From: Streptomyces sp. B1I3
GTDB taxonomy: Bacteria > Actinomycetota > Actinomycetes > Streptomycetales > Streptomycetaceae
Direction: 5' to 3'
NCBI RefSeq assembly: GCF_030816615.1
Contig: NZ_JAUSYD010000001.1
Location: 5,788,501 to 5,852,500, forward strand
Length of the DNA: 64,000 bases
The position numbers and the translations under genes were made by a program. The notes beneath the pieces are model-generated. The model ran no database searches. It saw only the letters and a list, made by a program, of their open reading frames with translations, and was not told the DNA's origin. This document shows positions 58,090-59,757 of this stretch, piece after piece (positions within the stretch are counted from its first letter, which is position 1; the number at the start of each line of letters is the position of its first letter).

Positions 58090-58208
58090 GGTCATGAGTG
58101 ACAGCGACTACGGCCCCGGCCCGCTGTCCGGCAACCCTCCGTCCGTGGCGGGGTGCCCCGGGTGAAGACCGGGCCGTAGGCAGCGAGGTCTGCGGCAAGC
58201 GCGGGCCC
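58090..58208 (+). ncRNA. SAM-IV riboswitch
   Basis: About 119 nt matching the actinobacterial SAM-IV aptamer. Recognisable conserved blocks are GGTCATGAGTG (58090-58100), the ACAGCG...CGCTGT stem, CCGGCAACCCTCC (58128-58140), GGCGGGGTGCCCCGGGTGA (58147-58165) closing with AGACC, and the 3' GCGGCAAGCGCGGG (58192-58205). The GGCCC loop and GGGCC downstream can form the pseudoknot. It senses S-adenosylmethionine and should repress the downstream PLP-enzyme gene when SAM is plentiful. Confidence 0.93.
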
Positions 58209-58380
58209 CTCGGCGTCCTTTGACGCCACCCCTTGGGGTCCTGGTCCCAGGGAGCCTCTTGTGAGCAAGCGAATGCGATAGGGCGCGACGCCCTCCTCCG
58301 CACACCCCTTTTCCTTCCTTCCCCGTGCTGCCGCGTACCCGCCGGCGCGAGGATGTCGCCTGCCTTTACGGGAGTTCGCC
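58209..58380 (+). promoter_or_regulatory. Expression platform and leader of the SufS-like gene
   Basis: Three short hairpins follow the aptamer: GGCGTC/GACGCC (58212-58227), ACCCC/GGGGT (58228-58239) and CCTGG/CCAGG (58240-58251). Then come GGGAG (58250-58254), a tiny ORF GTG...TAG (58261-58281, MSKRMR) and a GGGCG/CGCCC hairpin (58281-58293). The main gene has its own GGGAG at 58370-58374, 6 nt before ATG 58381. The mini-ORF is in frame with the main gene. Confidence 0.55.
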
Positions 58381-59757
58381 ATGTCTGTCTCCACCGCTGC
58401 CGTCGACCAGTCCATTTGTGCCCCGCTGCCGGTTCTGGGTGCGGATGTCACCGTTCCGCTCGTGACGGGCGGGGACGTCACCTATGCCGCCCTGGACTAC
58501 GCGGCGAGCGCACCGGCGCTCCAGCGGGTGTGGGACGACGTGGCGGCCTACGCCCCGTACTACGGCAGCGTGCACCGTGGTGCCGGCTACCTCTCCCAGC
58601 TCTCCACCGACCTCTTCGAGAGCAGCCGGGCCTCCGTCGCGGAGTTCCTCGGCTGCCGGGCGGACGACCAGGTGGTCTTCACCCGGTCCACCACCGACTC
58701 CCTCAACCTGCTGGCCGCCGTACTGCCCGCCGACTGCCAGGTGTTCGTGTTCGAGACCGAGCACCACGCCTCCCTGCTGCCCTGGCGGGACGCCCGGGTG
58801 ACCTACCTCGACGCCCCGCGCACCCCGGCCCAGGCCGTCGCGACGCTGGAGCGTGCGCTGGCGGGCCGCGCCCCCTACGGGCCCGCACTGGTCTGTGTGA
58901 CGGGCGCATCCAACGTCACCGGCGAGCTGTGGCCGGTGGAGGAGCTGGCTGCCGCCGCCCACGCCCACGGCGCACGGATCGTGCTCGACGCGGCGCAGCT
59001 GGCGCCCCACCACCCGGTGGACATCACCGAACTGGACGTCGACTGGGTCGCCTTCTCCGGACACAAGCTGTACGCGCCGTTCGGCTCGGGCGTGCTCGCG
59101 GGGCGGGCCGACTGGCTGCGGGACGCGGAGCCGTACCTCGCGGGCGGCGGAGCCTCCCGCAAGGTCGCCCGGCGCACCGACGGCGGGGTGGACGTGGAGT
59201 GGCACACCACCGCGGCGCGGCACGAGGCGGGATCGCCCAACGTCATCGGCGTCTACTCGATCGCCGCGGCCTGCAAGGCCCTGACGGAGGCCGGGTTCGA
59301 CCGGCTGGTCGAGCGTGAGCAGCACCTGGTGGCCCGTGTCCTCGAGGGCCTGGCCGAGGTTCCCGAGGTGCGGGTGCTCTCGCTGTTCGGCGACGAGGCC
59401 CCCAGGGTCGGTGTGATCTCCTTCGTCGTCGAGGGCTGGAACAGCTCGCACTTCGCCGCCGCGCTCTCCGCGGAGTACGGCATCGGGGTGCGGGACGGCC
59501 TGTTCTGCGCGCACCCGCTCGTCCGTACCCTGCTGGGCGGCGAGGCGCAGGACCCGGGCGAGTGCGGCGCGCCGGACGCCGAGCCGGGGGAGAGGTCCCT
59601 CAACGCCATCCGGGTGAGCTTCGGGGCCGGTACCCCGGACGAGCACATCGAGCGTTTCCTGGGGGCCGTCCGTGAGCTCGTGCGCACGGGCGCCCGCTGG
59701 ACCTACCGCACCGAGGACGGCCGCTGTGTCCCGGACCGGGGCGCGGCCCAGGTCTGA
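58381..59757 (+). CDS. SufS-like class V aminotransferase / cysteine desulfurase family enzyme under SAM-IV control
   Basis: 458 residues of the class V PLP fold: VFTRSTTDSLNLL, ETEHHASLLPW (His129 stacks on PLP), VLDAAQ (Asp203) and the Schiff-base Lys229 in AFSGHKLYAPFGSG. Cys376 in VRDGLFCAHPL lies where SufS/CsdA enzymes have their catalytic Cys (RxGHHCAQPL), though flanking residues differ. It may therefore be a desulfurase or lyase acting on a sulfur amino acid; control by a SAM riboswitch supports a role in methionine/cysteine supply. The exact reaction is unknown. A 20-bp terminator follows. Confidence 0.87.
   Translation: MSVSTAAVDQSICAPLPVLGADVTVPLVTGGDVTYAALDYAASAPALQRVWDDVAAYAPYYGSVHRGAGYLSQLSTDLFESSRASVAEFLGCRADDQVVFTRSTTDSLNLLAAVLPADCQVFVFETEHHASLLPWRDARVTYLDAPRTPAQAVATLERALAGRAPYGPALVCVTGASNVTGELWPVEELAAAAHAHGARIVLDAAQLAPHHPVDITELDVDWVAFSGHKLYAPFGSGVLAGRADWLRDAEPYLAGGGASRKVARRTDGGVDVEWHTTAARHEAGSPNVIGVYSIAAACKALTEAGFDRLVEREQHLVARVLEGLAEVPEVRVLSLFGDEAPRVGVISFVVEGWNSSHFAAALSAEYGIGVRDGLFCAHPLVRTLLGGEAQDPGECGAPDAEPGERSLNAIRVSFGAGTPDEHIERFLGAVRELVRTGARWTYRTEDGRCVPDRGAAQV

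Follow-up and report, generated by a model that had tools for sequence, protein, structure and literature searches.

The 64-kb window (the whole stretch of DNA that was analysed) contains the following features relevant to this study:

58090-58207, forward strand: SAM-IV riboswitch aptamer (RF00634), Rfam covariance match
58250-58254, forward strand: Shine-Dalgarno-like GGGAG preceding the six-codon ORF
58261-58281, forward strand: six-codon upstream ORF, GTG AGC AAG CGA ATG CGA TAG (MSKRMR, predicted translation)
58280-58294, forward strand: G+C-rich inverted repeat AGGGCG-CGA-CGCCCT, read from the sequence, overlapping the stop codon of the ORF and followed by a C/T-rich stretch
58381-59757, forward strand: gene of P0001, a SufS-like class V PLP enzyme of 458 amino acids, F-C-A-H clade, with Lys229 and Cys376

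SAM-IV was the sole Rfam family above its gathering cut-off within the window. The covariance match extended over the complete model (positions 1-116 of 116) and scored 105.4 bits, well above the cut-off of 38 (E 2.4e-18); the alignment contained a single non-standard pair, the innermost one of the last stem. The first-pass annotation had described the aptamer core as nearly complete, which this search bears out, and its spacing of 172 nt between aptamer and enzyme ORF was right to within one base (58208-58380, 173 nt). We infer that the aptamer binds SAM. The enzyme gene is not located among suf genes: as judged by eye, its neighbours are a trpD-like gene upstream and Lrp/AsnC-like and rhomboid-like genes on the opposite strand.

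P0001 scored 252.5 bits against the Pfam family Aminotran_5 and 255.1 bits against the SufS model TIGR01979, whose cut-off is 475.1. The distance from this cut-off suggests that the reaction may have diverged from that of SufS. Lys229 lies within SGHKLY and Cys376 within LFCAHPL. The residues K229, H128, D203, Q206, C376, A377 and H378 were invariant in all 131 aligned sequences, of which more than 90 were close Streptomyces relatives and some others came from genomes present twice; they were likewise invariant in a 16-member alignment drawn from many families. We take Lys229 to be the catalytic residue, His128 the stacking residue and Cys376, at the SufS position, the persulfide cysteine.

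The closest relatives of P0001 by sequence were Streptomyces proteins (up to 95% identity), and its identity to 18 SufS-type paralogues from the sampled genomes was 31-38%. In a tree of 49 sequences the enzyme clade was separated from these paralogues with a support of 100/100. Three of the 18 paralogues were checked against TIGR01979, and all three exceeded the cut-off (503-541 bits). At the position of the Cys376 motif the paralogues carry HHCAWPL (14), HHCAQPL (1) or HCARPV (3), which identifies LFCAHPL as a signature of the clade: the clade members listed have F-C-A-H where SufS has H-C-A-W/Q/R. The substitution of HHCAQPL by LFCAHPL, pointed out earlier for this protein together with Lys229 and Cys376, is thus real and characteristic of the clade. 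F-C-A-H was also found in the deep relatives L201, L202, L205 and L206, with no SAM-IV in the scanned stretch.

The predicted structure of P0001 (mean pLDDT 83) had SufS-type cysteine desulfurases and the E. coli selenocysteine lyase/CsdB as its nearest solved structures. The top 50 matches of Foldseek and the top 50 of VIA-align were SufS-type cysteine desulfurases throughout, CsdB included; in the VIA-align set the Z-scores were 39-44 and the rmsd 2.1-2.8 over 369-397 residues. The invariant residues and these structural matches make the active site look as if built for persulfide chemistry. When compared with the SufS cysteine desulfurases (TIGR01979; structures from E. coli, B. subtilis and M. 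tuberculosis), the enzyme shares the PLP fold type and overall structure and keeps the Lys, the His and the Cys position to which we ascribe the catalytic, stacking and persulfide roles, but it differs in score (255 bits vs 475), in forming a separate clade (100/100), in the FCAHP motif, in its location away from suf genes and in having a SAM-IV leader.

To see how widely aptamer and enzyme are paired, 148 genomes of the class were searched for the enzyme, SAM-IV, MetX, MetY, MetM, MetO, rhodanese and MetZ. The enzyme was present in 58 genomes, a count that includes G132, where the match is in two pieces, and the partial matches of G142, G062 and G085, and excludes G008 and G024 (41% identity), both of which the tree places at the base of the clade. 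SAM-IV was found on the same strand, 44-294 nt upstream, in 55 of the 58. The exceptions were G081, G101 and G137, whose enzyme loci again gave no SAM-IV match when rescanned with the covariance model. The phylum sample (296 genomes) yielded four further enzyme-positive genomes outside the class, two of them with SAM-IV and two lacking it. All of 80 homologous loci carried SAM-IV as well, recognized in 66 by the core string only and in 14 by the covariance model. Neighbouring genes were poorly conserved: among 21 loci the widest clusters not overlapping the enzyme reached six and five loci, and three other clusters consisted of ORFs lying antisense to the enzyme gene. Aptamer and enzyme therefore appear to travel as a unit.

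The 148 genomes contained 133 SAM-IV sites, of which 55 preceded the enzyme, 27 MetY, 13 MetX and 38 other genes, making the SufS-like enzyme the largest target group among those sorted. Downstream sequences were translated for 34 of the 38 other sites (those left out were the site in G037, at a contig end, and G092:C36, G004:C107 and G120:C6), and for most of these 34 the target was named by visual inspection only. SAM-IV has been described as regulating metXY in Actinomycetales (available text of PMC4239095). The leader studied here belongs to the same RNA family, and MetY and MetX form the other large target groups in our sample, but its target is SufS-like, and in Streptomyces a six-codon ORF lies between aptamer and gene.

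SAM-IV in front of the enzyme gene is already on record for two Streptomyces species. SLIV_26975 of S. lividans is listed as a SAM-IV-controlled 'cysteine desulfurase (thiamine metabolism)' (table in the accessible part of PMC8079986), and in S. clavuligerus RNA-seq revealed a premature transcript from the SAM-IV leader of CRV15_21540, which encodes a class V PLP enzyme (accessible part of PMC8269248). Judging from the element, the annotation and the genus, both genes are probably orthologues of the gene in the window. The open-access literature searched assigns no function or reaction to the enzyme, and does not describe the breadth of the pairing, the separate clade or the leader ORF.

Methionine genes were then compared with the distribution of the enzyme. 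The genome containing the window has no match to MetX and nothing above the cut-off for MetY (best 206 bits vs 495). It does have a MetM-like gene, a member of the threonine-synthase family by model, that carries a SAM-I riboswitch 18 nt upstream and is followed by a gene for a 91-amino-acid ThiS-family protein ending in GG. This metM-metO pair (G000:C1 3587344-3588943) and the enzyme gene (5846881-5848254) are about 2.26 Mb apart, and no MetM or MetO match was found in the 104 enzyme neighbourhoods searched. MetO acts as a thiocarboxylate. MetM of Streptomyces is described as a homocysteine synthase using O-phosphohomoserine, with a SAM riboswitch upstream of metM and with metO coding for a protein of sulfur-carrier type (available text of PMC12172450, citing Hasebe et al.). 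The enzyme and the MetM/MetO route have control by a SAM riboswitch in common, but MetM is threonine-synthase-like whereas the enzyme is SufS-like. The accessible portions of the open-access literature searched name no sulfur donor for the loading of MetO. As a carrier of the MetO type needs such a donor, the enzyme is a candidate for this function.

Among the 148 genomes, 47 had both enzyme and MetM, 11 the enzyme only, 59 MetM only and 31 neither; Fisher tests on these counts ignore relatedness. MetM was called at E 1e-60, a match in G007 (38% identity) was left out, and some MetM matches with no visible MetO neighbour may be threonine synthases. An adjacent metM-metO pair was present in at least 40 of the 58 enzyme-positive genomes. 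The distribution of the enzyme appears not to follow that of the MetM route, with 11 positives lacking MetM and 59 MetM-positive genomes lacking the enzyme. MetO cannot be the sole acceptor, an idea that was rejected because of these 11 genomes. Thirty of the 58 positives had both MetX and MetY. MetX was called at 300 bits or more, since no genome reached the curated threshold of 500; scores were 364-448 everywhere except in G116 (314). All 58 enzyme-positive genomes had MetM and/or MetX/MetY. The enzyme thus need not be a missing step, and a missing homocysteine synthase was discarded as the main reading.

Nine of the 11 enzyme-positive genomes that lack MetM had MetZ (the exceptions being G081 and G101), and seven of these nine also had rhodanese (not G111 and G139). 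MetZ occurred in 16 enzyme-negative genomes as well and therefore does not discriminate, which led to rejection of rhodanese-MetZ as a general partner. In G112 and G122, which represent one genus only, the enzyme and the rhodanese-MetZ pair are separated by 3.2 and 1.6 kb, respectively (L153 and L152), with an isochorismate-synthase-like gene (by eye) in between. SAM-IV precedes a rhodanese-MetZ pair in L178 (G002), L172 (G027) and L168 (G092); this arrangement suggests persulfide-based sulfur delivery to O-succinylhomoserine sulfhydrylase.

From annotation and from gene numbering and order, we take SCO2146 of S. coelicolor to be the enzyme and SCO4293 to be MetM. A study of ArgR placed SCO2146 (cysteine desulfurase) and SCO4293 (threonine synthase) in one transcriptome class of five genes and reported ArgR binding upstream of SCO4293 (available text of PMC3293853). 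Because of this binding, it may be ArgR and not SAM that puts the two genes in one class.

The leader was analysed in the window and in the 80 homologous loci (81 leaders), 77 of the latter being titled Streptomyces. The six-codon ORF was found by pattern in 79 leaders, and the other two had variant six-codon ORFs. In Streptomyces the ORF starts 53 nt after the aptamer, and the start of the enzyme follows 120 nt further on. The consensus is GTG AGC AAG CGA ATG CGN TAG. The conserved 24-nt block at the ORF had a mean major-letter fraction of 0.976, compared with 0.581 and 0.559 in the flanking 24 nt. Of 81 genomes of the genus, 55 contained a single exact match to the block and 26 contained none, and a reversed control block had no match in any of them. 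Codons 2 to 5 were fixed across the leaders even at their wobble positions, which constraint at the peptide level alone would not explain.

This near-complete fixation, wobble positions included, would fit an RNA or protein-binding element that is not translated at all. For the leader we regard such an element as possible but less likely than a translated ORF, since the pattern of the remaining variation is that of a reading frame: the base that varies most is the wobble position of codon 6 (A in 49, T in 18 and C in 14 leaders), where Arg is kept in 80 of 81, and the sole change in the stop codon is from TAG to TAA, in one leader. Moreover, GGGAG or AGGAG precedes the start by 5-9 nt in 81 of 81 leaders, and the fold of the alignment over the block was weak. 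The position of the block argues in the same direction. In other genera, an in-frame start of the enzyme, accompanied by a purine-rich ribosome site, lay 16-69 nt past the aptamer in 15 of 17 leaders (in the remaining two the enzyme match begins after 43 and 64 nt). The Streptomyces ORF thus occupies approximately the position at which the enzyme gene begins in other genera, which suggests a translation relay.

In the window the 3' end of the aptamer can pair with GGGGUCC, which can alternatively form a hairpin over part of the ribosome site, and GGGTCC was present between aptamer and enzyme in 12 of the 17 leaders from other genera. Hiding of the Shine-Dalgarno sequence was dropped as a signal: it was predicted for 76 of the 81 real leaders compared with a mean of 88.7% in shuffled controls, hardly a distinguishable difference. 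The inverted repeat at the end of the ORF was paired in the predicted fold, with a z-score of only -1.54, and a consensus terminator scan detected no intrinsic terminator in the leader. Together with the C/T-rich stretch the repeat is a possible termination region.

Taken together, the reading we favour, to which we would give not quite an even chance, is that the enzyme is a cysteine desulfurase that is repressed by SAM and provides sulfur for the synthesis of homocysteine; in Streptomyces the route probably runs through MetM/MetO, and the switch probably works through the six-codon ORF. The enzyme would mobilize cysteine sulfur as a persulfide on Cys376 for homocysteine and hence methionine. 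The likeliest acceptor in Streptomyces would be the carrier MetO, reached through an E1-like activating enzyme, and MetM would use the MetO thiocarboxylate on O-phosphohomoserine. When SAM is plentiful, the aptamer would fold and the enzyme gene would be shut off. In Streptomyces this switch probably acts first on the short ORF: at low SAM the ORF would be translated and transcription would continue into the enzyme gene, whereas at high SAM its start would be hidden and transcription would stop early. The leader ORF and the published premature transcript make this block of short-ORF translation, followed by an early transcription stop, the simplest model. Since 11 of the 58 positives lack MetM, nine of these 11 have MetZ, and SAM-IV also precedes rhodanese-MetZ pairs, the enzyme is best regarded as a sulfur donor, repressed by SAM, for homocysteine synthesis generally. 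A more far-reaching version seems possible but tentative: that the F-C-A-H desulfurase is the principal SAM-IV target of actinomycetes, providing the sulfur of the MetO thiocarboxylate in Streptomyces and that used by sulfhydrylases outside this genus, with the Streptomyces switch acting via the MSKRMR ORF and coupled termination.

Class V members with other substrates exist, e.g. cystine C-S lyase. The enzyme could likewise be a C-S lyase of SufS fold that acts on cystine, cystathionine or S-substituted cysteine and provides a thiol or persulfide for methionine supply instead of passing sulfur from protein to protein. The distinct clade, FCAHP in place of HHCA[WQ]P, the score far under the SufS cut-off and the invariant His378 two residues past the Cys would all be compatible with this, but the Lys, His and Cys that we take to be the functional residues of SufS are all retained and the closest structures are those of cysteine desulfurases, so that we consider a lyase unlikely. 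We think it less probable still that the enzyme is a second SufS-like desulfurase, working for iron-sulfur clusters, thiamine or the thiolation of tRNA; its control by SAM would then be explained by the many radical-SAM enzymes that depend on both. The thiamine entry in the S. lividans table (accessible part of PMC8079986) speaks for such a role. Against it, a separate SufS paralogue above the cut-off was present in three genomes, two of which are enzyme-positive (L214 = G104 and L219 = G076), and repression by SAM fits methionine supply better, the other SAM-IV targets including MetY, MetX and rhodanese-MetZ.

The first-pass annotation had read the locus as a possible undescribed sulfur-amino-acid step. 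Its link between SAM-IV, a SufS-like enzyme and methionine sulfur supply has held as the best reading, but a step of the enzyme's own, such as direct formation of homocysteine, is less likely than a sulfur-donor role and in our estimate very improbable. It could be argued from the missing MetX match and the lack of MetY above cut-off in the genome of the window, and from a review according to which MetA is absent from most Streptomyces. However, MetM is described as a homocysteine synthase of Streptomyces (available text of PMC12172450) and the same genome has a metM-metO-like pair. MetX and MetY also coexist in the 30 positives mentioned above, every positive has one or other synthase route, and at its active site the enzyme has the residues of a cysteine desulfurase.

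The wide recurrence of the pairing in actinobacteria is indicative of a sulfur supply reserved for methionine, and under the sulfur-donor reading the clade is a concrete candidate for the enzyme that loads MetO. If this is true, a major target of SAM-IV in actinomycetes is an enzyme that donates sulfur and not metX/metY, and a SAM example would join the riboswitches acting through tiny upstream ORFs. For the Mbox and B12 riboswitches of M. tuberculosis, action via translated upstream ORFs and translation-linked Rho-dependent termination has been proposed (PMC12810186, PMC11260477, available text). These share with our leader the order of aptamer, short ORF and main gene, but respond to ligands other than SAM; the available text of the two papers contains no mention of SAM-IV or Streptomyces.

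Some of the other SAM-IV sites deserve mention. The genome of the window has a second one outside the window (G000:C1:1368272-1368382, minus strand; L145 6273-6383, minus strand; 85.7 bits). It follows two P450-like genes (by eye) and lies 50 nt upstream of a 138-amino-acid ORF that had no NCBIfam or Pfam match at the thresholds used. In L166, L167 and L169, from genomes of family f9, SAM-IV lies 34-37 nt before similar-looking ORFs of 169-179 amino acids; the ORF of L169, the only one scanned, had no family match. G040 has two back-to-back SAM-IV elements on opposite strands (contig 16, 1956-2291; L165/L171), one before the SufS-like enzyme and the other before a luciferase-like flavin oxidoreductase gene (by eye). 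In L173, L176, L180, L183, L186 and others the targets resemble transporter substrate-binding proteins, with a TauD-like dioxygenase in L180; by eye, targets of this type point to uptake of sulfur or methionine.
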